Origin: Algicola sagamiensis DSM 14643
GTDB taxonomy: Bacteria; Pseudomonadota; Gammaproteobacteria; Enterobacterales; Alteromonadaceae
Reading direction: 5' to 3'
NCBI RefSeq assembly: GCF_000374485.1
Contig: NZ_KB894506.1
Location: 1 to 64,000, forward strand
DNA length: 64,000 nt
Below the pieces are notes generated by a model. The model saw nothing but the letters and a program-made list of their open reading frames with translations, made no database searches and was not told where the DNA came from. Positions 1 to 10,604 of this stretch are shown here, in pieces (the first letter of the stretch is position 1; every line of letters starts with the position of its first letter). A program made the translations under genes and the position numbers.

Positions 1-186
1 CGGTAAGTGCCCATTGCGAACGACTGCTGGTTTGCCATCCACTTGAAGCGTTTCGTATTGTGCCAATAACTCGGCCACTTCAGCTTCAATGGCTTTCGCG
101 AGGAGTGCTTGTGCCCCTTGTTTTAAAACGTCGTTCAGTGGATCTATTTCTGGTGATTTCAGTGGTGATACTTTATGATTTGCCAT
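1..186 (-). CDS. IS256-family (mutator-type) transposase, N-terminal part, cut by window edge
   Basis: Reading from an ATG at 184-186 on the minus strand gives 62 residues open to the window edge. They include the stretch LLAKAIEAEVAELLAQY followed by AVVRNGHLP, which is characteristic of the N-terminus of IS256/mutator transposases. The DDE catalytic domain would lie outside the window, so integrity cannot be judged. The element ends next to a decayed IS4-type gene. The terminal inverted repeat of the element should lie within about 187-275, but I cannot define it without the other end. Confidence 0.8.
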   Translation of the reverse strand, partial: MANHKVSPLKSPEIDPLNDVLKQGAQALLAKAIEAEVAELLAQYETLQVDGKPAVVRNGHLP

Positions 187-204
187 GTGGTGTTTCTCTT
201 TGTT

Positions 205-763
205 GACTATTGATTTGCGAGATCAATCAACAGATTAGCACCACATTCTTTTTCTCACCTCATACACCAGAAATCATCATAGCTCCATTTTCGAATGAAC
301 CCGTAAACAGTGCGGAAGACACTTTAAAAATTATCACCTACTACAAGAAACGTTGTCTTATTGAGGAATGTCACAAGGCTTGGAAAAGTCAAGGGACTCG
401 AGTTGAAGAGCTTTGAATACAGAGTAAAGACAACTTAGATAGATTAGCTAACATTTATGCTTTTTAGCCGTAAGGATCTTCCAGTTGAAGTTTGCCAATG
501 AGCAAGTTGAAGATATTAGCTGTGAGAAAATCTTATTCCCGAGCGCTTGGAAGTTACTTTAGGTGAAAAGAATAAAGACACCACCTCCAGAGAAAATTCT
601 GACTGCAAAATGGGCTTATGAACATCTCGCATGGCTTTGCGGTTGTAAAGAAAGCAAAAGAAATGGAAGAGCATCAGTTTAGACGCTCTGGGAAGGATGG
701 CTTAAATTACAAGCCATCATTGAAGGTTACGAACTAGGCCTGTCTATTGAACAGGGTTTGTGA
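205..763 (+). pseudogene. Decayed IS4-family transposase, C-terminal remnant
   Basis: Translation in shifting frames recovers the C-terminal half of an IS4/Tn5-type transposase. From about 276 it reads EPVNSAEDTLKIITYYKKR followed by IEECHKAWKSQGTRVEEL, the conserved YREK-like segment of this family. After a frame break it continues with LAVRIFQLKFANEQ, then KWAYEHLAWLCGCKESKRNGR, and ends WLKLQAIIEGYELGLSIEQGL with a TGA at 761-763. The N-terminal two thirds are missing and there are several frameshifts, so it cannot be functional. The 5' boundary is approximate because the adjoining IS256-type element probably interrupts it. Confidence 0.75.
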
Positions 764-794
764 TCAAGAGACAGCCAGCTATGCAGGTGGTTTT

Positions 795-1304
795 TTACCT
801 CAACCACCACAATTTCGGGAGTGAAAATACTCCCGCAACCCCGCCAATAACACCACCGACGACCATACCTTTTCGACCAAAGCCTTGACCAAACGCGGCA
901 CCGATCAGCGCCCATGCTTCGACTTCTTCCAATTGACGGCTGACAGGATTTCCTTTGAGAATATCGTGCGCGGTATGTTCACAATTGCGGTAAAATAACT
1001 GATAGTCTTTTGGGTTTGCTAAAAGTTGCGCTGCATTTTCTTTGATTTGTGATTCAGGTAAGCCAGAGGGTTTGGCAAGGACGTCTTTTCCTTCCCGAAA
1101 AGCTTCAAAATTACAAATATGTTCCCCTTTTCCAGGAACATTGTGGATCACTTGATCATTGCCGAGGTAAACACCGACATGCATCACTGGCCCTTTTCTC
1201 CGATAGAGAATATCACCTGTATGCAGTGAATTGGGGTCAGTGACATAAAAAGGCTGGAACTGTTTTGCCTTCATATGAATTGGTTCATAGCTCACATTCA
1301 TCAT
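795..1304 (-). CDS. LRAT/H-REV107-like thiol acyltransferase with hydrophobic tail
   Basis: This 169-residue protein has the circularly permuted NlpC/P60 fold signature of the LRAT family. HVGVYLG carries His42, VIH carries His54, and NCEH carries the nucleophile Cys108. Animal members are acyltransferases or phospholipases acting on phospholipids through a Cys acyl intermediate. The last ~40 residues are glycine-rich and hydrophobic (AAFGQGF, then GGVIGGVAGVF), resembling the membrane- or lipid-droplet-anchoring tail of H-REV107/PLAAT proteins. It is the last gene of a minus-strand operon, 8 bases after the WS/DGAT gene. A role in phospholipid or storage-lipid acyl transfer is inferred; peptidase or amidase activity is the alternative. 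Confidence 0.75.
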   Translation of the reverse strand: MMNVSYEPIHMKAKQFQPFYVTDPNSLHTGDILYRRKGPVMHVGVYLGNDQVIHNVPGKGEHICNFEAFREGKDVLAKPSGLPESQIKENAAQLLANPKDYQLFYRNCEHTAHDILKGNPVSRQLEEVEAWALIGAAFGQGFGRKGMVVGGVIGGVAGVFSLPKLWWLR

Positions 1305-1312
1305 CTTTTGCC

Positions 1313-2794
1313 TCAGGCTGCGGATTTTTCTTTCGAATCGTCCTGATGAACGATATTGGATGGATCATCAACAACAGATTTTCCATCCGGTGGTGGTACT
1401 TCACCAATATCATCTGTTGTGACACGATGATCATCAACACTTCTTTCTAATAAATCAAAAGCTTCATGAAGATATGCCTTCATCGGCGCTAACGATTTAA
1501 TATCCCGATTACAACATACCATTCCGACATTGACACGACCGTTATAGGTCAACATTGTGACATTGATCCCACCACCGGGAGGAATGGTAGAAATTGGGTA
1601 TGTCGCGACAACTGCGGACTCTTGAAAGTATAGTTGTTGCTTAGGACCGGGCATATTCGATATGAGAATATTACCAAGCGGATTGATGTAATCCGACAAT
1701 CGCAGCGCTTCGAATAATATTGCATAGGATTGTAAAATTAAGGTGTAGTAACTAAAGGCGGATGGGGTGACTTTTTTTGCAGCATCTTTGACAATTTTGT
1801 GGGACTGAATGATTTGACGTAGACGTAGATAAGGGTCTTTCTTGGCATAAGCCAGCTCAACCAATGCAATGCCAATTTTGTTGCCCGTTGTTTTTTCACC
1901 AGGCTTGCGTAAGTTGATTGGCATTTGTGCAATAAATGGCTTGTCGAATGTGTGCCCATAATCATTTAACAGTCGATGCAACGCAATATCAAGTGTGGTG
2001 AGCAGTAACTCGTTTACGGTTGCTCTGAGCTTCTTGGATAAATGCTGTACACGGTCCAACGGCAAATCGGTTGTGACGAGTGTTCTTCCTTTCTTAACCT
2101 GTCCTGTCAATACGGTTTTTTTACCCGAAAACGGAAGCGGCATGTAGTGCCGGTTCAATCGAATTAACTTTAGAAACAGTCGGCAGAACATCCAGAAAAT
2201 ATCCATAAATGAATGGATAAAAATCCAACTTTTATGGAGAAAGCGAGTCCACTGGTTGAGATATTTTTTCGGTCGCTCAGGGTGCTCTATTGACCAAACT
2301 GGCGTTGGTAACGCCTGATTTGGTTGGCTGGAAAAAGTCGTTTGAAACCACTGTAACAGTGATGCACCATCGCCATACATGTGGTGAATTTTAATATAAA
2401 TCGCCCACTGGTTCCCTTCATGGCTTTGAATGAGATGATATTGCCAAAGTGGTTTATCTTTATCCAGTCGTACTTCATGTAATCTTGCGACATATTGATG
2501 GAGTTCTGTAGAATTAGATACATCATGGATTTGATGAAAATGAAGGTGATAATCCATATCGAGTTTATCGACATCCTCAAAATGCGTTGGAAATCCAAGA
2601 TAGGTTTTAATTTTGCAGGAAAAAGGGGATGTCGGTGTCGAAAATGTTTTGAGGTGCCGATACAGTTGATACACATACTCTTGGGAGATATGTTCCGGTA
2701 AACTTAATATTTGTATACCGCCGACATGTTTTGGATTTTGATCGGTTTCTGTGATCCAAAACGCTCTGTCAATCAATGTGATAGCCTTAGTCAT
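1313..2794 (-). CDS. Wax ester synthase / diacylglycerol acyltransferase (WS/DGAT)
   Basis: This is a 493-residue protein of the bacterial WS/DGAT family, which makes wax esters or triacylglycerols from acyl-CoA. The condensation-type active-site motif HHMYGDG (consensus HHxxxDG) is at about residues 137-143, and the N-terminus has the typical MTKAITLIDRAFW. The C-terminal domain has the expected NILISNMPGP (consensus SNVPGP). I chose ATG 2794 over an upstream TTG at 2812 because GAAGG lies 8 bases before it. It sits 29 bases downstream of the TetR gene and 8 bases upstream of the LRAT-like gene, so the three are probably co-transcribed. Substrate preference cannot be told from sequence. Confidence 0.92.
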   Translation of the reverse strand: MTKAITLIDRAFWITETDQNPKHVGGIQILSLPEHISQEYVYQLYRHLKTFSTPTSPFSCKIKTYLGFPTHFEDVDKLDMDYHLHFHQIHDVSNSTELHQYVARLHEVRLDKDKPLWQYHLIQSHEGNQWAIYIKIHHMYGDGASLLQWFQTTFSSQPNQALPTPVWSIEHPERPKKYLNQWTRFLHKSWIFIHSFMDIFWMFCRLFLKLIRLNRHYMPLPFSGKKTVLTGQVKKGRTLVTTDLPLDRVQHLSKKLRATVNELLLTTLDIALHRLLNDYGHTFDKPFIAQMPINLRKPGEKTTGNKIGIALVELAYAKKDPYLRLRQIIQSHKIVKDAAKKVTPSAFSYYTLILQSYAILFEALRLSDYINPLGNILISNMPGPKQQLYFQESAVVATYPISTIPPGGGINVTMLTYNGRVNVGMVCCNRDIKSLAPMKAYLHEAFDLLERSVDDHRVTTDDIGEVPPPDGKSVVDDPSNIVHQDDSKEKSAA

Positions 2795-2823
2795 TGCGAT
2801 CACCTTCGTCAATGTGTAGGTCT

Positions 2824-3453
2824 TTATTTTCCGTCAAACCCAAACTCCTCCTTTAACATTGACACTTCCTGCTCCGGTAAAGTCAGGTAAGGTGAGACGG
2901 CGTAGAATACAGATGCAAGACATTGATGAATCACATTGTCCTGATTGACATCTTCACCTTTTAATACGTAATAGTTTAAAGACTGCGTGAACAAGAGCAC
3001 GATGAGATCGATCAAATGCTGTTTATCGCATGCTGACAGTTTAAGTTGGCCCTGATCGACGTACATGTCAAGCAACTGAGCCGTTGCTTTTTCCATATCC
3101 CGAATAATAAATTTAAAGCCCTTTGAAATTGAAGGATATTTGTTAATGAGATCAGAGGGGGTCCGATAAAGAAATCGGAAATTGTGTTGTTGCTCGATAA
3201 CCAAATACAAGAAATAGAAAAAATCCTTCATTTCAATGGTGCTTTCTCCTGGACGGAACAGGATATGCTTGACTCGGCTATCGAAGGACTGAAACAGTGC
3301 TTTGACAATCTCTTCCTTTCCTTTGAAGTGGTAATACAGATTTCCTGGGCTGATGTCCATTTCATTTGCGATATCGACACTGGTGACATTTGCTTCACCA
3401 AATTCATTGAATAAGGCAAGGCTCGTGATGAGGATACGATCTGCTGTCTTCAT
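2824..3453 (-). CDS. TetR-family regulator, PhaD-like
   Basis: This is a 209-residue TetR protein. The N-terminal helix-turn-helix runs MKTADRILITSLALFNEFGE, and its recognition helix region ISPGNLYYHFKGKEEIV closely matches PhaD, the polyhydroxyalkanoate-locus regulator of Pseudomonas. The C-terminal part is the matching ligand-binding region. An upstream GTG at 3483 is possible, but family members start at MKT, so ATG 3453 is preferred. It is the first gene of the operon with WS/DGAT and the LRAT-like gene, divergent from parA. Two perfect inverted repeats in the shared promoter are its likely operators. The ligand is probably an acyl-CoA or fatty acid, by analogy with PhaD. Confidence 0.85.
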   Translation of the reverse strand: MKTADRILITSLALFNEFGEANVTSVDIANEMDISPGNLYYHFKGKEEIVKALFQSFDSRVKHILFRPGESTIEMKDFFYFLYLVIEQQHNFRFLYRTPSDLINKYPSISKGFKFIIRDMEKATAQLLDMYVDQGQLKLSACDKQHLIDLIVLLFTQSLNYYVLKGEDVNQDNVIHQCLASVFYAVSPYLTLPEQEVSMLKEEFGFDGK

Positions 3454-3542
3454 TGAACAATCCAATTTTTTACATCGCGGCACGCTTGCGGTGTTTGACC
3501 ACGCGGGGGTGAACCAACGACTAAGTTTAAGGGAGCGAGTGA

Positions 3543-3571
3543 CTCATATTTTTTTTCGTATGAAATATGAG
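3543..3571. promoter_or_regulatory. Perfect 9-bp inverted repeat, probable TetR operator
   Basis: CTCATATTT (3543-3551) and AAATATGAG (3563-3571) are exact reverse complements separated by 11 bases. The dyad lies between the divergent PhaD-like regulator and parA, where an autoregulatory TetR operator is expected. There is no T-run suited to a terminator, and no gene ends here. Confidence 0.6.
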
Positions 3572-3583
3572 AAATTGACTTTA

Positions 3584-3618
3584 TTTTCACCGAGTTTGGC
3601 GTAATCTATTGGTGAAAA
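3584..3618. promoter_or_regulatory. Second perfect inverted repeat in the tetR-parA promoter
   Basis: TTTTCACC (3584-3591) and GGTGAAAA (3611-3618) are exact reverse complements separated by 19 bases. It is 12 bases from the first dyad and closer to parA. It may be a second regulator site or a composite operator; the wide spacer makes this less certain than the first dyad. Confidence 0.4.
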
Positions 3619-3713
3619 GAAAGACACTACAACATACCAGACACTACACCACGAATATAACGAAAATATTTAGAATTTATCTTCTAACTTTTTGATATAA
3701 AAGGATGAATTTT

Positions 3714-4481
3714 GTGAAACGTGTGTTTTTTAATAAGAAAGGTGGCGTAGGTAAATCCAGCCTTGCAGTGAATTTAGCCGCCATCAGTGCACAACGTGGA
3801 TATAAAACACTGGTGATTGATTTAGATACGCAGTGTAACGCTACACAGTATTTATTGGATGGTAAAGAAGACGTTTCTCCAAATATTGCAGAATACTTTG
3901 AGCAAACCATCACTTTCCATATTCACCGGAAAAGCATTCGTGATTATGTCCATTCAACTTGTTTTGACAACTTGTTCATTATTCCTTCCTCTCCTGAGCT
4001 GACATTTCTGGAAACAAAGCTGGAAAGTCGCCACAAAATTTATAAATTGAGAGACTCTTTGGAGGAGATGGCATCCGTTTTTGATCGTATTTATATTGAT
4101 ACCGCGCCTGCTTTAAACTTCTACAGCCTCTCTGCCTTAATTGCCGCGGACTCCTGTGTGATCCCAATTGATTGTGATGACTTCTCTAGAAAAGCACTTT
4201 ACAACATCACGAATCATTTAGAAGAAATCAAAGAAGATCATAATACTGGACTTAAAATTGAAGGCATTGTCGCGAATCAGTTTATTAAACGCGCCCTTCT
4301 TCCAAAACGGATCATTGATGAATTAAAGGAAGAATCGTATCCGGTTTTTGAACAAACGATTTCGGCGTCTGTAAAGATGCGTGAGTCGCATCAGGAGAAA
4401 AAGCCACTAATTCATATGGCGCCAAAACATACGCTGACCGAAGAACTCAGCCAGCTGTTTGATGAATTAGAGCCTGCTTGA
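3714..4481 (+). CDS. ParA-family ATPase (orphan, no ParB)
   Basis: This is a 255-residue ParA/MinD-type P-loop ATPase. The deviant Walker A motif KGGVGKSS spans residues 9-16 with the signature first Lys; Walker A' is in LVIDLDTQCNATQYL and Walker B in IYIDTAP. Family members begin MKRV(V/F)FN, and AAGGA is correctly spaced for the GTG at 3714, so that start is preferred over ATG 3705. There is no ParB gene or obvious parS cluster nearby, so chromosome partition is unlikely. ParA ATPases without ParB commonly position cellular cargo on the nucleoid. It is divergent from the PhaD-like/WS-DGAT/LRAT operon, suggesting (inference) a role with lipid inclusions. Confidence 0.85.
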   Translation: MKRVFFNKKGGVGKSSLAVNLAAISAQRGYKTLVIDLDTQCNATQYLLDGKEDVSPNIAEYFEQTITFHIHRKSIRDYVHSTCFDNLFIIPSSPELTFLETKLESRHKIYKLRDSLEEMASVFDRIYIDTAPALNFYSLSALIAADSCVIPIDCDDFSRKALYNITNHLEEIKEDHNTGLKIEGIVANQFIKRALLPKRIIDELKEESYPVFEQTISASVKMRESHQEKKPLIHMAPKHTLTEELSQLFDELEPA

Positions 4482-4487
4482 ACTCAC

Positions 4488-5162
4488 TTAAGGGTGCAAA
4501 AGCTGATTCAGCTCATAAAGGGATTGGACTTGATAGTGTGGCGTTATCCCTTCTGGCACATCTTTTTGCTCAGGGTTTAGCCAACAAGTGTGGATCCCAG
4601 CGTTCATTCCACCAAGAATATCTGAATGTGGATTATCACCAACCATGAGGATATTCGATTTCGGTGGATGGTTCATCAGCTGAAAAGCATGTTCAAAAAT
4701 GCCTTTATCAGGTTTCGCAATGCCCACTTCCTCAGAGATGATAAGGTGATCAAACATGTTTTGAAGCCCTGCGCGAGCCAAACGGATCTCTTGCAATGCG
4801 GTAAAGCCATTCGTAATGATCCCAAGCTTCACATGGCCTTGGAGAGTATTGAGTAGTTCCTCTGCGCCTGGTAATAGATAACAGACATCAGCCATGGCAT
4901 CTAAAAAGTCCAGGTTCATTTTTTGGGTACTGATATTTAACTCTTCTGACCATAATTCAAATCGACGGTGCTTCAATTGTTGAGCTGTGATCTTACCATC
5001 CTGGTAGTTAACCCACAGGGGAAGATTGAGCTTCTGATATTCCAAAAATTCAACCTTCGTGAAATCAATTTGATAGTTTGCAAACATCCGCTTCAAACCT
5101 TCATAGGCATCGAAATGAAATAGGGTGTCGTCTGCATCAAAGAGGATCCAAGAATAATTCAT
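4488..5162 (-). CDS. yjjG: HAD-family pyrimidine nucleotidase, YjjG-like
   Basis: This 224-residue HAD hydrolase matches the length of E. coli YjjG (dUMP/dTMP 5'-nucleotidase, housecleaning of non-canonical pyrimidine nucleotides). Motif I is DADDTL at residues 9-14, with Asp9 as nucleophile. Motif II lies in LGIITNGF, the motif III Lys in GIAKPDKGIF, and motif IV in MVGDNPHSDILGG. The reading frame is open upstream to 5237, but MNYSWILFDADDTL is the family-typical start. It converges on parA with a 6-base gap. Substrate is inferred from family only. Confidence 0.85.
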   Translation of the reverse strand: MNYSWILFDADDTLFHFDAYEGLKRMFANYQIDFTKVEFLEYQKLNLPLWVNYQDGKITAQQLKHRRFELWSEELNISTQKMNLDFLDAMADVCYLLPGAEELLNTLQGHVKLGIITNGFTALQEIRLARAGLQNMFDHLIISEEVGIAKPDKGIFEHAFQLMNHPPKSNILMVGDNPHSDILGGMNAGIHTCWLNPEQKDVPEGITPHYQVQSLYELNQLLHP

Positions 5163-5411
5163 CAGCGTTACTCCAAACTGTGGGGAAAAAGACATGACAT
5201 CCGCGATGGGGATGCGTATTTCAGGCTTGAGTGACAAACAATATTGCGATAAAGGCCACTCAAGTAATTGAGCGGAATATTATAACGAACTTATCGAACT
5301 GCCGAAAGCTTGATCGCTATGATATTGGCTTGAATATCCAGACTATTGACCGATGTACCCAAGATAAATACGAATATATTCTTTTTCATTTTTATGAGTG
5401 GAATATTGAAA

Positions 5412-6161
5412 ATGAATACCCAAAGAACATCCCTTATTTTCTTACCTGGTTTATTTGCTGGTGGTTGGATTTGGGAGGGTGTTGTTAGATTGTTTGATAA
5501 AAACGAAGTTGAAATATTTACCTTTGAACATGCGATCCCCAAAGCATTCAAAGGAAATTTTCAAATAGCAAAGCTGCGTCTGGATGAATTGATAGCATCC
5601 TCTACTTCCAAACCTTACCTGATCGGTAATTCAATGGGAGCTCTGATTAGTTTGCACTATGCAAACGTTTGCCCAGAAAAAATTTCAGGAGTCATTTTAA
5701 GTGGCTCACCAGGGCTGAACGAAATGGACGTCGGTATTGCGCTTAATGAGCTTCGTACAGGAAAGGTAGAATTTGCTTCACGGCTGGCAAATCGAGTATT
5801 TTACGATAAATCACTTGTCCCTGAACGCGGCATCAGTGAGATAGCGGCACTATTTTCTGATAAGCAAATATTTGGTCATCTTGTACGCTGGCTTTCATTT
5901 AGCCGTCGTTACGATATTTTTGGAGCCTGTGCATCATTGGTGACTCCCGTTCATGGTATATGGGGAGATCATGATTTGATCACGCCAGTGCAAGGCTGGC
6001 AAGTGCTTGCAGAACAGTTAAGTACTCTGTCAATTGATGTGATCCCACAATGTGGGCATAGCCCTATGCTTGAAAATCCAGAAGCGTTTTATCTGTCTTT
6101 AACACATGCAATTCATAAGATGCAGGATATAAATGCTGAGAGGGTTACTCATTATGCATAA
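5412..6161 (+). CDS. Alpha/beta-hydrolase fold esterase-like protein
   Basis: This 249-residue protein has the alpha/beta-hydrolase layout: oxyanion region LIFLPGLFAGG, nucleophile elbow GNSMG with Ser74, an acidic residue in WGDHD, and the catalytic His in CGHSPMLENPEAF. Size and layout resemble BioH-like carboxylesterases, but the elbow is not the BioH type and no biotin genes are near, so I do not call it bioH. The start at 5412 removes a poor N-terminal extension. It overlaps the next gene by 8 bases, so the two are translationally coupled. Confidence 0.75.
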   Translation: MNTQRTSLIFLPGLFAGGWIWEGVVRLFDKNEVEIFTFEHAIPKAFKGNFQIAKLRLDELIASSTSKPYLIGNSMGALISLHYANVCPEKISGVILSGSPGLNEMDVGIALNELRTGKVEFASRLANRVFYDKSLVPERGISEIAALFSDKQIFGHLVRWLSFSRRYDIFGACASLVTPVHGIWGDHDLITPVQGWQVLAEQLSTLSIDVIPQCGHSPMLENPEAFYLSLTHAIHKMQDINAERVTHYA

Positions 6162-6570
6162 TGATATACATCGAACGATAGTCCGAAGATCAAAATATTT
6201 CTTGTTTTCTATCACGGTGTTTTTTGCACTGAGTTCGATTTTTCATTTTGTTTGGGCTGAGCAAGCAACTCAAGTTTTATCAGATAATCGTGTGATCAGA
6301 ACTGTTGGATTGCTATTAGTGGTGTTCGGGGGATGGGGAATGTATTGTTCACATCGATTGTGCAGAATGGTTGGCTTTCTTTTTATGTTTTCAGGTATTG
6401 GGAGATTATTTTTTCCTTTCGAATTTATCCAAATCAATACCTGGACGGATAAACAAACACACGGATATCTTCTCGCCCTCGGCGCTTGCATGAGCCTGTG
6501 TACTTTTTTATGGGTCGCTTATACCAATCAAAAACGGTTATCCGTCAGCGCATCTTCAGAGATAAATTAA
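6154..6570 (+). CDS. Small four-helix membrane protein, unknown function
   Basis: This 138-residue protein shows about four hydrophobic segments, for example YFLFSITVFFALSSIFHFVW near the N-terminus and TVGLLLVVFGGWGMYC in the middle. I do not recognise the family beyond a general resemblance to small DUF-type membrane proteins. It starts inside the end of the preceding hydrolase gene (ATG 6154, stop of the hydrolase at 6161). Its 3' end overlaps the convergent DUF445 gene by 15 bases. Confidence 0.65.
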   Translation: MHNDIHRTIVRRSKYFLFSITVFFALSSIFHFVWAEQATQVLSDNRVIRTVGLLLVVFGGWGMYCSHRLCRMVGFLFMFSGIGRLFFPFEFIQINTWTDKQTHGYLLALGACMSLCTFLWVAYTNQKRLSVSASSEIN

Positions 6571-7764
6571 CTGTAATTGCATAAATCCGGCACACATGCC
6601 AAGGATGGCTCCAACAACAATCAATTTCCACTCATCCTGTTTGTATGCTGGCCTCAAAACACCTTCGAATTCTTCGGGTTCTAAAGCCTGCATTTTTTGA
6701 CGAAGATCATTCCCAATATTGAGCGCATCGTTGGCATAGTCATAAGCGTATAGCAGATATTTTTCTGCATGCTCAAAAAGCATCTTGCAGGCATTATCCT
6801 TGATCGTGTAATAGTTTTCTGAGCCTATGGTGAGTACAACATAAGGTTGCGTGACATTTAAGTAACGATCAATCGCTTCGTTGACATGTAACTCAATAAT
6901 TTCAAACAGCTGATCTGAGCCTTGACCACGAAGTAATGTATCGACAATGTTCTCTGCGTTGATCAGTTTTTTTTCTATGATATCGGAATAGATTGTACTG
7001 ACCTCATTTTGCCGTTTTAAGAACATGCCTTGGATGGTTATTGGACCAAGCTTTTTCGGACGCTTGGGTTCGAATATGATCTGGATTGCAATCCAGTTTG
7101 TTGCATAGCCTACAATCAAGCCCCCTAAGGGAAGCAACCACCATGCCTGATAAAAATACCAAAGCACCATGGTTGGAATACCAAACAAAAACCCGAAATA
7201 AAAGCCACTACGTTCAATAAATGGGAATTCTTTTTCGCCAGACTTGATGAAGATCTCGTTCACAAGTCCTGGGTTTTTTGTGAGTTGCTCAATGACCAGC
7301 TCTTTAATATTGAGGATCTCGACAACATTATCCTGAAAGTCCTGCACCATCTTATTGACGACATCAGGTACATCCATTTCGACACGATGATACACCGCTT
7401 TTTTCCCCTGAATCGGCATCATCGCCCAAAGTTGTGGGGCGGAGTCTTTCATGACGGTATTAATGATGCCTTTGAGAACTTGGTTGAGCCGGCGCTCGAT
7501 ATTTTCGGTGAGTTGTTTTGCATCTATGCGTTTGGCGATGTCTTCTACAGACAGTAATCGGTTGAGAATCAAATCGGTTTCGATTTCTGCCATCTCTCTC
7601 GCTTTTGCTGGAATGAGCCCTTGCCAGCCAAAAATGGGTTTGATCCCGACAAAACGAACGGGGTAAAACATCATTTTGACCGCAAGATAATTGGTAAGCC
7701 AGCCAACAAATGCGCTGATAATCGGAATAAGCATTAATATGAGGTGTTCTAAAATCCAGTCCAT
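6556..7764 (-). CDS. DUF445-family membrane protein
   Basis: This is a 402-residue protein of the DUF445 family (YheB/YtpJ-like). It has an N-terminal membrane segment followed by the family hallmark WLTNYLAVKMMFYP and GLIPAKAREMA. A second copy of the pattern, YATNWIAIQIIFEPKRP then FLKRQNEVS, follows mid-protein, and there is a C-terminal hydrophobic helix at residues ~382-402. The internal repeat suggests a membrane-anchored tandem domain facing the cytoplasm. Function of the family is unknown to me. It is convergent with, and overlaps by 15 bases, the small membrane protein gene. Confidence 0.85.
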   Translation of the reverse strand: MDWILEHLILMLIPIISAFVGWLTNYLAVKMMFYPVRFVGIKPIFGWQGLIPAKAREMAEIETDLILNRLLSVEDIAKRIDAKQLTENIERRLNQVLKGIINTVMKDSAPQLWAMMPIQGKKAVYHRVEMDVPDVVNKMVQDFQDNVVEILNIKELVIEQLTKNPGLVNEIFIKSGEKEFPFIERSGFYFGFLFGIPTMVLWYFYQAWWLLPLGGLIVGYATNWIAIQIIFEPKRPKKLGPITIQGMFLKRQNEVSTIYSDIIEKKLINAENIVDTLLRGQGSDQLFEIIELHVNEAIDRYLNVTQPYVVLTIGSENYYTIKDNACKMLFEHAEKYLLYAYDYANDALNIGNDLRQKMQALEPEEFEGVLRPAYKQDEWKLIVVGAILGMCAGFMQLQLIYL

Positions 7765-8197
7765 ACTCTTCTATACAATCTTTTTGGGGTGACTGCAGGA
7801 ACACTGCTTCACGAAATGAAAAGCGATGTGCTGTCACAAACTTGCATATGACGGATCTGCTCAAGCGACTACAGAGAGGCGTCTTTTCAAACTCTGAACA
7901 TTGTATTGATTTTCAAACCAGTTGAATAGTGGGAATTTAATCTGAATCAGAAACGAACAACAAGCCCAAGTGTATCGATGAATAAAATAAAAAACATGAT
8001 AAGAAATCGCATAAATATACCAGATTAGAAAATCTAATTTAACTAGTTGGCCTAATTATGCTAAGAGATGTCTAATGTTATTAAAACGTCTGATCAGTGA
8101 TGTTTTTTGAGGAATGGGAAGACAAAATAAGCAAATATTGTTAGTATCGGCCAGCTATTCATAATTATTTCTAATGTAACTTGAGAAAGGAAAAAGA
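7765..8197. other. Intergenic region between divergent DUF445 and NSS genes
   Basis: This is an AT-rich spacer of 433 bases holding the two divergent promoters. I see no convincing RNA gene, repeat or conserved small reading frame. A purine-rich ribosome binding site (GAGAAAGGA) precedes the transporter start. Confidence 0.5.
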
Positions 8198-9619
8198 ATG
8201 AGTCTTGAACGGGGGCAATTCAGCTCAAAAATCGGCTTTATATTAGCCGCTGCTGGATCTGCAGTCGGGTTGGGGAACCTGGTTGCATTTCCTGTTGCAG
8301 CAACAAAAAACGGGGGCGGTGCATTTTTATTAATGTACGCAATATTCGTCGTGGCAATTTGTTTGCCGCTCATGATCGCTGAGTTATCACTCGGTCGTAA
8401 TACTTGCCGAAACCCATTTGGTGCTTTTAAAGAACTCTCAAATAACTCGCCGATTTGGAAGTTTTTCGGGATGTTTATGATGATCACACCATTCATGATT
8501 GGTGTTTTCTATACCGTTGTCACTGTTTGGATCGTTGGGTACCTTTTTGAGATTGTGACGGGTAACCTAGATGTTTTATCTCAAGCGGAGACTTTTGGGC
8601 AGTTCATCAATTCGCCTGATGTATTCCTCTATATGGCAATTGTTTTTGCAATGGTGAAATTGATCCTTGTTGGTGGTGTTAAAGACGGGATTGAACGTTT
8701 AGCGAAGTTCTTGATGCCTGCGCTATTTGTCTTGCTGATTGCATTGATGGTTTATGTTCTGACATTAGAAAATGCTTTCCTTGGTGTGAAGTATTATTTA
8801 ATTCCAGATATCTCAAAAATCACACTGCCTGTGATTAGTGGTGCACTGAGCCAAGCTTTCTTCTCACTCTCCCTCGGTATGGGTATTTTGATCACATATG
8901 GTTCATATTTGCGTAAGCAAGACGATATCTCTAAGTCCGCATTTTCTGTTGCTATGACGGACTCAGGTGTAGCTTTCCTTGCTGGTTTGATGATCTTGCC
9001 TGCGATTTTCTCTTTCAACCCTGAGACGGATACTTCACAGTTGACAAGCTCTTCGGTTGGAATGATTTTTGTTTTCTTACCAAAAATATTTTTAGCGTTA
9101 CAGGCTGATATTGGTTACTTTGGCGCTTCGCTGATTGCTGGTATTTTCTTTATACTTGTTTTGTTTGCTGCGATCACAAGCTTGGTTTCTATCATTGAAG
9201 TTCCTGTCGCTGGTTTTATCGATAATCGTGGCTATCCGCGTGATAAGGCGCTCTTGATTGTAGGTGAATTGATGGCTGCATTAACCGTCATTGCTGCACT
9301 TTCTTTTGGGATGTCACAGTTCTTTACAGAATTTGTGTCCTATGCAGGAAAGGTAAAATCATTCTTTGATATTCTGGAAAATGTATTCTACGACACAATC
9401 CTTCCAATTAATGGTCTTATTGTGTGTATTTTCGTGATGTATCGTTGGAAGCAGGCAAACTTCAACGCCGAAATGGAAACAGGTGGAGAAGGAATTGCTA
9501 GGACTTGGATGCAAAAGTACGTCAACATTTCATTGATGACCTTTATTCCTGTGATCCTTGCGCTTGTTGCGATCAGTACAATCGCTCTAAAATTCTTTGG
9601 TGTCAACTTACTGGCTTAA
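8198..9619 (+). CDS. Sodium-dependent transporter, NSS (SNF/LeuT-type) family
   Basis: This is a 473-residue inner-membrane protein with about 11-12 hydrophobic segments. The N-terminal NSS signature is present: AAAGSAVGLGNLVAFP, then NGGGAF, the unwound TM1 and TM2 region that binds sodium and substrate in LeuT-type transporters. The usual WRFP is LVAFP, a variant subgroup of bacterial members. The mid-protein GALSQAFFSLSLGMGI is the TM6 substrate/Na site. Amino acids are the usual substrates of the family; the specific one is not predictable. A strong terminator follows at 9641. Confidence 0.9.
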   Translation: MSLERGQFSSKIGFILAAAGSAVGLGNLVAFPVAATKNGGGAFLLMYAIFVVAICLPLMIAELSLGRNTCRNPFGAFKELSNNSPIWKFFGMFMMITPFMIGVFYTVVTVWIVGYLFEIVTGNLDVLSQAETFGQFINSPDVFLYMAIVFAMVKLILVGGVKDGIERLAKFLMPALFVLLIALMVYVLTLENAFLGVKYYLIPDISKITLPVISGALSQAFFSLSLGMGILITYGSYLRKQDDISKSAFSVAMTDSGVAFLAGLMILPAIFSFNPETDTSQLTSSSVGMIFVFLPKIFLALQADIGYFGASLIAGIFFILVLFAAITSLVSIIEVPVAGFIDNRGYPRDKALLIVGELMAALTVIAALSFGMSQFFTEFVSYAGKVKSFFDILENVFYDTILPINGLIVCIFVMYRWKQANFNAEMETGGEGIARTWMQKYVNISLMTFIPVILALVAISTIALKFFGVNLLA

Positions 9620-9640
9620 GCCTGACATGCTTTGATTTGG

Positions 9641-9667
9641 AAAGAGGCATTTTGCCTCTTTCTTCTC
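9641..9667 (+). terminator. Intrinsic terminator after NSS transporter
   Basis: AAAGAGGCA (9641-9649), loop TTT, and TGCCTCTTT (9653-9661) form a 9-bp hairpin followed by a pyrimidine/T-rich tract. Confidence 0.8.
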
Positions 9668-9776
9668 CCTATTTTCTTAATTGCCATAATTCGCCATATT
9701 TCCTCCGCATAAAGCCATAATTGAAATAATGTTTTCACGTATAATGCCGCCAAATTTTTTAACAAAGTAAAATAAG

Positions 9777-10604
9777 ATGTCTAGTTTTAAATCCACCTTT
9801 ATCAAATTAATTTTGTCCACTTTGACTATGGTGCTTGCTGTTGGCTGCACTTCTAAAGCAACAAAAAAAGAAGACCTCCAGTTACAGGCAATTTTTGCAA
9901 CTCACTTAGTGAAAGGGACGCTGATACTCAGCTCAGATAAAGGGACTCAATATCAATATCATATTGAGCGTAGCCAGAAACCATTTCTTCCCGCCTCTAC
10001 TTTTAAGATCCCGAATACATTGATAGCTTTGGATGAAGGTGTTGTTCAAAGTGCAGATGATGTTTTTCAATGGGATGGAAAGCAAAGAGAGCTACCTGTT
10101 TGGAATCAGAACCTAACTTTAAGACAAGCATTACCAGCTTCATGCGTATGGTGCTATCAACAAATTGCGAGTCAGGTTGGCCTCGAAAACTATAAAAAAC
10201 ATATGAAAAAAATGTCATATGGTAATCAACAGCTCGGTGATTTAACGACATTTTGGCTCCAAGGAGATATCCGTATTAGTGCCCACCAGCAGATTGAATT
10301 CTTAAAGCGCCTTTATCACGAAACACTGCCTTACAAAAAAGAGCACCAACAGCTGACAAAATCACTGATGCAACAGGATAAAAACCAGGACTATACACTC
10401 TATGCAAAAACGGGTCTCGTTGGTTTTGGTGAAGAAAGCCCTCAAAAAATAGGCTGGTTTGTTGGGTTTATTGAAACGCAGGAAGATGTGTGGTTTTTCG
10501 CCCTCAATATTGATGTGGAACAGAAAAAGCATATCGCGATGAGAAAGCGGATTGTTTTGGAGGCACTGATTAAGAAAGGGATCATTCCAGAAACATCAGT
10601 GTAA
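9777..10604 (+). CDS. Class D (OXA-type) beta-lactamase, predicted lipoprotein
   Basis: This 275-residue protein has all class D serine beta-lactamase motifs in order. STFK spans 74-77 (nucleophile Ser74; Lys77 is the carboxylated general base), SCV is at 122-124, YGN at 148-150 and KTG at 211-213, followed by the usual GWFVGFIE strand. The motifs are intact, so hydrolysis of a beta-lactam is likely; the spectrum cannot be told. The N-terminus is a lipoprotein signal with lipobox LAVGC, lipidated at Cys24. Thr25 follows it, so outer-membrane sorting is expected rather than a soluble periplasmic enzyme. It stands alone, with a terminator overlapping its stop codon and no mobile-element signs, so it is probably an intrinsic gene. 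Confidence 0.9.
   Translation: MSSFKSTFIKLILSTLTMVLAVGCTSKATKKEDLQLQAIFATHLVKGTLILSSDKGTQYQYHIERSQKPFLPASTFKIPNTLIALDEGVVQSADDVFQWDGKQRELPVWNQNLTLRQALPASCVWCYQQIASQVGLENYKKHMKKMSYGNQQLGDLTTFWLQGDIRISAHQQIEFLKRLYHETLPYKKEHQQLTKSLMQQDKNQDYTLYAKTGLVGFGEESPQKIGWFVGFIETQEDVWFFALNIDVEQKKHIAMRKRIVLEALIKKGIIPETSV

Follow-up and report, generated by a model that had tools for sequence, protein, structure and literature searches.

A ParA-type ATPase gene kept beside a wax ester synthase operon in Algicola sagamiensis and its relatives: a candidate neutral-lipid locus

RESULTS

Four intact genes at the locus

Near the start of a 78-kb contig of Algicola sagamiensis DSM 14643 (NZ_KB894506.1), whose first 64,000 nucleotides we analyzed and call the window, an operon for a predicted neutral-lipid enzyme stands back to back with the gene of an orphan ParA ATPase. 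The operon is on the minus strand and comprises, in the direction of reading, the genes for a TetR-family regulator (2824..3483), a wax ester synthase/diacylglycerol acyltransferase (WS/DGAT; 1313..2812), and, in last place, a protein with the LRAT/PLAAT fold (795..1304; 169 amino acids [aa]). The gaps within this trio are 8 and 11 bases if the listed starts are used. The parA gene (3705..4481; 258 aa) is on the plus strand, and the divergent tetR/parA intergenic region occupies positions 3484..3704. All four open reading frames (ORFs) are present and intact according to the ORF list and to Pfam and NCBIfam scans, which confirms the layout of three tightly spaced minus-strand genes and a divergent parA described in an initial annotation.

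The WS/DGAT contains both domains of its family, WS_DGAT_cat (PF03007; 120.6 bits versus a cut-off of 23.6) and WS_DGAT_C (PF06974; 85.6 versus 20.7 bits), and has the catalytic motif HHxxxDG in the form HHMYGDG; HHxxxDG is kept in all 55 aligned proteins. The enzyme was thus correctly named at the outset. Its relatives in the PDB include 6chj (E-value of 3.4e-50) and 7nxg (5.9e-50), and it is the single PF03007 match in the genome of A. sagamiensis. With 282.7 bits it stays under the curated cut-off of TIGR02946 (309.95 bits), and by this score it ranks as a divergent member of the superfamily and not as a member of that named subfamily. The listed frame has 499 aa and begins with TTG; the true start is probably the ATG at position 2794, preceded by a sequence resembling a ribosome binding site (GAAGGTGA), which would give a protein of 493 aa and a TetR–WS/DGAT gap of ~29 bases.

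ParA scores 132 bits against AAA_31 (cut-off, 27 bits) and contains the motifs KGGVGKS, DLDTQ, and IDTAP; the Walker A, A′, and B motifs are present in all 16 aligned ParA proteins. The gene therefore does encode, as first proposed, a ParA with an intact deviant Walker A motif (KGGVGKS), and it is an orphan in that no ParB domain was found in the neighboring proteins scanned, up to 9.6 kb. The closest PDB chains are 8ray (E-value of 1.1e-32) and Soj (6iub; 3.2e-22), and McdA (6noo) matches with an E-value of 9e-9. PADLOC returned one weak match for ParA (26 bits, over the Walker A stretch), which we did not take as a sign of defense. In-frame stops were reported in four ParA orthologues (G210:C4:53489, G343:C15:326663, G511:C49:9907, and G120:C16:20599), which suggests decay, a sequencing error, or a match overrunning the end of the gene.

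The regulator has a PF13972 C-terminal domain together with PF00440, and its likely start, from comparison with relatives, is an inner ATG near position 3453. Its initial description as PhaD-like is not supported: a search of the genome of A. sagamiensis for PhaC (PF07167, PhaC_N) gave no match, and no PhaD model was among the 18 NCBIfam hits, the comparison with PhaD being one of family models only. A perfect 9-bp inverted repeat (CTCATATTT-N11-AAATATGAG; positions 3543-3571) lies between tetR and parA and is a possible operator. An operator conserved among relatives was considered and rejected, the same search giving no repeat of at least 8 bp in the other WS/DGAT-adjacent loci supplied. Promoter-like sites in the tetR–parA intergenic search were not in excess (12 versus 11.4 expected from shuffles), and there were 11 terminator-like sites versus 3.9 expected.

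WS/DGAT and a divergent parA are conserved neighbors

The neighborhood was followed in a sample of 59 genomes, made up of the window's genome and 58 relatives, one per genus. Fifteen relatives have a ParA orthologue (42 to 63% identity) and 12 have a WS/DGAT orthologue (48 to 60% identity); all of these 12 also have ParA, and in 7 of them the two genes are at most 2 kb apart. The TetR–WS/DGAT pair is present in all 12 relatives with the WS/DGAT orthologue, mostly with a DUF445 gene nearby. An apparent fusion of TetR and WS/DGAT in G046 (a 708-codon frame) was discarded as an artifact, the join spanning assembly Ns.

A scan of named genomes with nine ParA queries of the NKKGGVGKSS type, using patterns that favor this type, returned 45 loci, 41 of which were kept after the exclusion of four with 29 to 34% identity (L114, L115, L116, and L118). 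Several named loci belong to the same genomes as the numbered samples, and the sets are not independent. WS/DGAT lies within 6 kb of ParA and is divergent from it at 27 of the 41 loci, mostly from Paraglaciecola, Aliiglaciecola, Glaciecola, Algicola, and similar genera, joined by metagenome-assembled genomes (MAGs) labeled Oleispira and Thalassolituus and by one Colwellia. At one of the 41 (L097) the contig edge falls inside the TetR gene. ParA directly faces WS/DGAT, with a space too short for TetR, at 5 of the 27 loci (L077, L079, L085, L111, and L117); because the intervening TetR gene is gone, WS/DGAT and not TetR is the constant partner of ParA in these five. All four genes occur in the window's order in an Algicola MAG (L074), where the identities are 51% (LRAT-like protein), 59% (WS/DGAT), 54% (TetR), and 64% (ParA). 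Hence, the four-gene neighborhood that the initial annotation had put up for a survey is conserved in part: the arrangement ParA–(TetR)–WS/DGAT recurs, and the LRAT-like gene accompanies ParA at just 1 of the 41 loci (L074). At the conserved core are the TetR–WS/DGAT operon, which is widespread in these Alteromonadaceae-like bacteria, and, divergent from it, a ParA gene without a neighboring ParB.

Fifty-five WS/DGAT loci, a nonrandom set, were fetched for their gene content; TetR is found at 50, DUF445 at 47, and ParA at 26 of them, and genomes without the ParA insertion mostly have the order WS–TetR–DUF445. In the window, the DUF445 membrane protein, which in relatives is very constantly a neighbor of this operon, is encoded at positions 6556-7764 on the minus strand. 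Other genes recur around the operon elsewhere. A DUF1439-like gene of about 240 aa is a recurrent convergent neighbor downstream of WS/DGAT (L055, 12047-12775; L057, 5077-5790; and others); two of these proteins were scanned and one exceeded the cut-off, and the gene was not seen beside the WS/DGAT of the window. In seven loci (L157-L161, L170, and L171) a gene of 287 to 329 aa adjoins tetR in the interval occupied elsewhere by ParA, its TraB/GumN-like label resting on the scan of a similar protein from L055, and a small lipoprotein-like gene (103 to 133 aa) lies downstream of WS/DGAT.

On a ParA tree of 82 rows, built with a quick method, all WS/DGAT-adjacent ParAs fall into a single clade of 37 rows (Shimodaira-Hasegawa-like approximate likelihood ratio test value of 99), of which 31 are adjacent, 5 are not, and 1 (L097) could not be assigned. 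The simplest reading of the tree is that an older orphan ParA relocated about once into the tetR–DUF445 interval and that adjacency was then lost a few times. Clustering of the neighbors at 46 and 32 loci of the remaining ParA family gave no specific common neighbor. The largest non-ParA clusters, named by eye, were a sensor-like family (8 of 46 loci) and families of short-chain dehydrogenases and large sensor-like proteins (4 of 32 loci each), which we took as generic-looking; ORFs antisense to parA were present at 15 of the 32 loci of the second set. An acyl-CoA ligase gene near ParA in L062 and L143 was put down to chance, the two arrangements being different.

ParA and WS/DGAT co-occur also when unlinked

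The association was then counted in 216 genomes of the same family, the window's own included, with 500 bits as the minimum score of a WS/DGAT orthologue (the best match below this had 362). ParA is present in 40 genomes and the WS/DGAT orthologue in 48; 35 genomes have both, 5 have ParA only, 13 have WS/DGAT only, and 163 have neither. The corresponding numbers by genus (n = 49) are 18, 2, 1, and 28. Fisher's test gives P values of 3e-24 by genome and 3e-10 by genus, both uncorrected for shared ancestry. Of the 35 genomes with both, 19 have the two genes side by side in divergent orientation, 1 probably has them adjacent, and 15 have them unlinked. The probable case is G479, where ParA has its upstream side 0.4 kb from a contig end and a small contig breaks off at tetR–WS/DGAT. 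In 10 of the 15 unlinked genomes the two genes are on separate contigs and tetR has other genes upstream of it; in the other 5, more than 40 kb lie between them.

A wider sample covered 276 genomes of the class, in which a clear score gap sets apart 26 ParA orthologues (at least 299 bits); two contig fragments (G322 and G243) were counted among the 250 ParA-negative genomes. WS/DGAT occurs in 15 genomes of this sample, in 9 of the 26 with ParA and in 6 of the 250 others (P = 5e-7, uncorrected for kinship). In 7 of the 9 genomes with both, the exceptions being G000 and G001, WS/DGAT is on another contig or at least 59 kb away. As a control for genome size we considered genomes of at least 3.0 Mb, using rounded sizes and leaving out G243; 35 genomes without matches had no size entry, and a worst case added known storage-positive genomes missing from the size list, which raised the comparison group from 86 to 93. 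WS/DGAT was found in 7 of 20 genomes with ParA versus 3 of 86 (worst case, 5 of 93; P = 0.0003 and 0.0009), and PhaC in 9 of 20 versus 23 of 86 (worst case, 30 of 93; P = 0.17 and 0.31). Going by these size-controlled tests, the wider ParA family leans to bearers of WS/DGAT more clearly than to makers of polyhydroxyalkanoate (PHA).

The last operon gene encodes a protein with a predicted PLAAT-like fold

The LRAT-like protein matches PF04970 with 38 bits (cut-off, 24.3 bits). It has the catalytic layout of a permuted NlpC/P60-type core, H42 and H54 followed by C108 within N107-C108-E109-H110; H42, N107, C108, E109, and H110 are invariant in all 7 relatives, and H54 is not. Residues 144-160 form a Gly-rich hydrophobic tail (hydropathy of +1.25, 6 Gly). 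The initial annotation was right to credit the protein with both the NCEH site and this tail. An AlphaFold model based on 7 relatives replaced one based on 3 sequences (predicted local distance difference test score [pLDDT] of 54) and reached a mean pLDDT of 77.9, with values near or above 90 over most of residues 21-100; the tail was predicted with moderate confidence as two helices, the second of which is Gly-rich and hydrophobic. The best structural match of the model is PLAAT3/H-REV107 (4dot), with a VIA-align Z score of 12.5, a root mean square deviation of 2.5 over 94 residues, and a Foldseek E-value of 2.2e-4. Z scores were 9.5 to 12.5 for PLAATs, 8.2 for 3kw0, a cysteine peptidase from Bacillus cereus, and about 4 for peptidases of the MepS type. 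The likeness to human PLAAT/H-REV107 proposed earlier is thus borne out by the predicted fold, for which these are the closest proteins. The model also matches a chain of the Euglena gracilis respiratory supercomplex (PDB 8iuf, E7) with a Z score of 11 over 144 aligned residues, the tail included. Hydrophobic S1 pockets are a reported feature of permuted NlpC/P60 enzymes, and YiiX was seen with a bound fatty acid (PMC3142127).

In its position in this operon the gene is rare, known from the window and the one Algicola MAG (L074), and in the 59-genome sample the protein gave only weak matches, in 5 of the 58 relatives. Genus g36, which belongs to a different family, has a divergent cluster of LRAT-like, PHA_gran_rgn (PF09650), and WS/DGAT genes in all of its 11 genomes (L053, 508-4008; L226-L235); there the LRAT-like protein is 31% identical to that of the window (alignment A3) and the WS/DGAT 26%. 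In one of these genomes (G035, L053) an alpha/beta hydrolase gene follows the cluster. PLAAT-fold-type proteins are linked to WS/DGAT in two lineages, given the operon of the window and L074 and the cluster of g36, and this linkage is the better-supported part of the LRAT story. A six-frame search with PF04970 gave matches at an E-value of at most 0.001 in 13 of the 276 class genomes, none beside WS/DGAT; because the gene of the window itself escapes this search, its negative results weigh little. In a phage collection the LRAT-like protein had no match.

At the other end of the locus, a convergent yjjG-type gene begins 6 bp past the end of ParA. An Rfam scan of positions 1-10000 of the window gave no match.

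DISCUSSION

We propose that the locus serves neutral-lipid storage, that ParA positions the lipid inclusions, and that the PLAAT-like enzyme acts on lipid, a reading to which, taken as a whole, we give a chance only just short of even. According to this proposal, WS/DGAT would make wax esters and/or triacylglycerol (TAG), which would collect in inclusions, and TetR would control this synthesis and possibly also parA through the shared intergenic region with its divergent promoter. ATP-bound ParA dimers would coat the nucleoid and, acting as a diffusion ratchet of the McdA kind, move or space the inclusions, which would be kept from coalescing and be passed on to both daughter cells. For this, ParA would require an activating partner bound to the inclusion, which could be WS/DGAT itself. 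The PLAAT-like enzyme would work on acyl-lipids at the inclusion surface or at the inner membrane, as an optional part and not as an adaptor of ParA. The more general hypothesis has two parts: that a dedicated ParA-type ATPase positions or partitions wax ester/TAG inclusions, activated by WS/DGAT or another surface protein, and that the surface of lipid droplets in bacteria is a place of action of PLAAT-like enzymes, as it is for related enzymes in animals. We regard it as possible but distinctly doubtful.

Does ParA then have anything to do with lipid? It could have a different cargo, such as a chemoreceptor cluster or a replicon, and be a widespread orphan whose gene came to lie next to the lipid operon on one occasion and has stayed there by inheritance, in which case the neighborhood would carry no functional information. 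This alternative is quite possible, if somewhat short of a balanced bet, and much of what weighs against our proposal speaks for it. The adjacent ParAs form one clade, and the tree of 82 rows calls for no more than 4 changes of adjacency; neighbors can be inherited together, and the synteny argument is weakened for that reason. The synteny may be plain inheritance, DUF445 being present at 47 of the 55 WS/DGAT loci and ParA at 26. ParA lacks a WS/DGAT within the retrieved stretch at 13 of the 41 named loci, three of them labeled Bowmanella, Endozoicomonas, and Lacimicrobium and the other 10 from Methyloversatilis and another betaproteobacterium, Cellvibrionales, an Alcanivoracaceae MAG, and an unplaced gammaproteobacterial MAG. 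In the family sample, 13 of the 48 genomes with the WS/DGAT orthologue have no ParA and 5 of the 40 with ParA have no such orthologue, and genus g24 looks uncoupled (both in 2 genomes, WS/DGAT only in 5, and ParA only in 3). WS/DGAT is missing from 17 of the 26 class genomes with ParA, and 9 of the 26 lack both WS/DGAT and PhaC. PhaC, found in 53 of the 276 class genomes, is itself more frequent with ParA when size is not controlled for (11 of 26 versus 42 of 250; P = 0.004), and all these association tests ignore phylogeny. ParA relatives with 53 to 55% identity, among the matches listed, are carried by Paraburkholderia megaplasmids and a Pseudomonas veronii plasmid; two of these neighborhoods were inspected and had no WS/DGAT annotated, and a replicon-related role is possible for such relatives. 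The recurrence of a sensor-protein-like family near ParA at 8 of the 46 unlinked loci, too, speaks for another cargo.

Several observations speak against another cargo. Adjacency has been kept at about 60% ParA identity and despite the loss of TetR, the two genes co-occur also in the 15 genomes in which they are unlinked, the enrichment of WS/DGAT survives the size control, and no alternative specific neighbor emerged. A ParA gene stands beside putative cargo genes (WS/DGAT, at 27 of 41 loci and in one clade), with inclusions as its presumed cargo. The neighborhood suggests this function and is no proof of it, adjacency having arisen about once and ParA existing also without WS/DGAT.

The search for the partner that ParA would need adds to the points against lipid positioning. 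No ATPase-activating or McdB-like protein was found, and, WS/DGAT and TetR apart, no candidate gene is conserved beside ParA. An acidic C-terminal tail of WS/DGAT was considered as the ParA adaptor and dropped: in a comparison of 26 ParA-adjacent, 16 unlinked, and 13 ParA-less loci (G479 counted as unlinked), the adjacent and ParA-less tails did not differ significantly in charge (P = 0.13) and differed weakly in length (P = 0.02). The initial suggestion that the LRAT-like protein connects ParA to the droplet finds no support: nothing ties the two together, and 26 of the 27 ParA–WS/DGAT loci have no LRAT match in the retrieved stretch.

For the LRAT-like protein itself, we also considered a role unrelated to storage lipid, either as an NlpC/P60-type cell wall peptidase or as a gene of a mobile element or defense island. 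MepS is its best PDB match by sequence (E-value of 0.0016), and it passes the cut-off of PF00877 (NLPC_P60) by a hair (23.1 versus 23). A relative with 37.7% identity is encoded near type I restriction genes on plasmid p15 of Vibrio anguillarum (L225, 4995-5456). Remnants of insertion sequences (IS) flank the gene in the window, an IS256-like transposase remnant at positions 1-186 on the minus strand (at most 54.8% identity to Vibrio plasmid copies) and an IS4-like remnant at about 304-774, which adjoins the gene at the contig start. The scarcity of the gene likewise counts against a general role in lipid storage: it is present at only 1 of the 27 ParA–WS/DGAT loci, and of 72 WS/DGAT-bearing genomes searched with the LRAT profile A3, 13 have a match at an E-value of 0.01, which is strong in only 2 (the window's own and G035), moderate in G043, where it is away from WS/DGAT, and weak in the rest. 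We nevertheless consider such a role improbable. By eye, the protein has no evident N-terminal signal peptide, the order of the catalytic residues is permuted (C108 after H42 and H54), and the predicted fold is far nearer to PLAAT than to MepS-type peptidases. PADLOC gave no match for the protein, the L074 copy adjoins WS/DGAT, and all 11 genomes of another family have the LRAT-like–WS/DGAT cluster.

That the locus is instead a PHA granule locus under a PhaD-type regulator is hardly credible and largely refuted by the missing phaC, despite the PHA_gran_rgn gene that separates LRAT from WS/DGAT in the second lineage and the enrichment of PhaC before size control, since the window's own genome has no PhaC match, the ParA–PhaC association loses significance in genomes of at least 3.0 Mb, and TetR matches no PhaD model.

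How bacteria distribute and inherit their lipid droplets looks like an open question. A 2025 review of bacterial organelle positioning (PMC13052382) does not use the terms "lipid droplet," "wax ester," and "triacylglycerol" in its main text, and "lipid" does not occur in the accessible text of a 2023 paper on multiple ParA/MinD ATPases and what they position (PMC10241942). A paper on the genomic context of WS/DGAT, which has its gammaproteobacterial contexts in the supplement, makes no mention of ParA, partitioning, TetR, or PhaD in its main text (PMC10351704). Literature searches, which covered titles and the openings of abstracts and had most subscription journals outside their coverage, gave no description of a ParA–WS/DGAT or LRAT–WS/DGAT link among the papers listed. 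A ParA kept beside an inclusion-making enzyme is a concrete candidate for droplet distribution in cultured marine bacteria (Paraglaciecola, Aliiglaciecola, and Glaciecola). The PLAAT-fold proteins that cluster with WS/DGAT in two lineages would, moreover, be relevant to the bacterial origins of lipid droplet enzymes in animals.

The components of the locus resemble proteins of known structure. The WS/DGAT has both Pfam domains and the HHxxxDG motif in common with the solved enzymes (6chj and 7nxg), from which it differs in being divergent and linked to ParA. PLAAT proteins have a hydrophobic C-terminal segment. The LRAT-like protein shares this segment, the predicted fold, and the His/His/Cys layout with PLAAT/H-REV107; in contrast to PLAAT/H-REV107, with which it has about 20% identity in the structural alignment, it is bacterial, is encoded in a WS/DGAT operon, and is a predicted enzyme only.

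As a whole, the locus can be compared with three systems, each described here from the accessible part of its source. Lipid droplets of Rhodococcus bind DNA through MLDS (PMC5504291); the link between droplet and nucleoid and the regulator gene in the same operon (MLDS/MLDSR) liken this system in function to the locus in the window, MLDS being an actinobacterial tether and not a ParA ATPase. PhaM, PhaF, and PhaH distribute polyhydroxybutyrate (PHB) granules and have no homology to ParA (PMC13052382). They provide the nucleoid-based distribution of a carbon storage granule that we propose for the window, but they are DNA-binding granule proteins that act on PHB and not on wax ester/TAG. McdAB positions carboxysomes by a nucleoid ratchet (PMC13052382), and the McdA/McdB system, like the window, has the gene of a ParB-less ParA-type ATPase beside the genes of a cytoplasmic body. 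The putative cargo in A. sagamiensis is a neutral-lipid inclusion, no McdB-like partner was found, and by sequence the ParA resembles Soj and other ParA chains more closely than McdA. Lipid inclusions as the cargo of ParA would, we infer, represent a new variant of McdA-type positioning.

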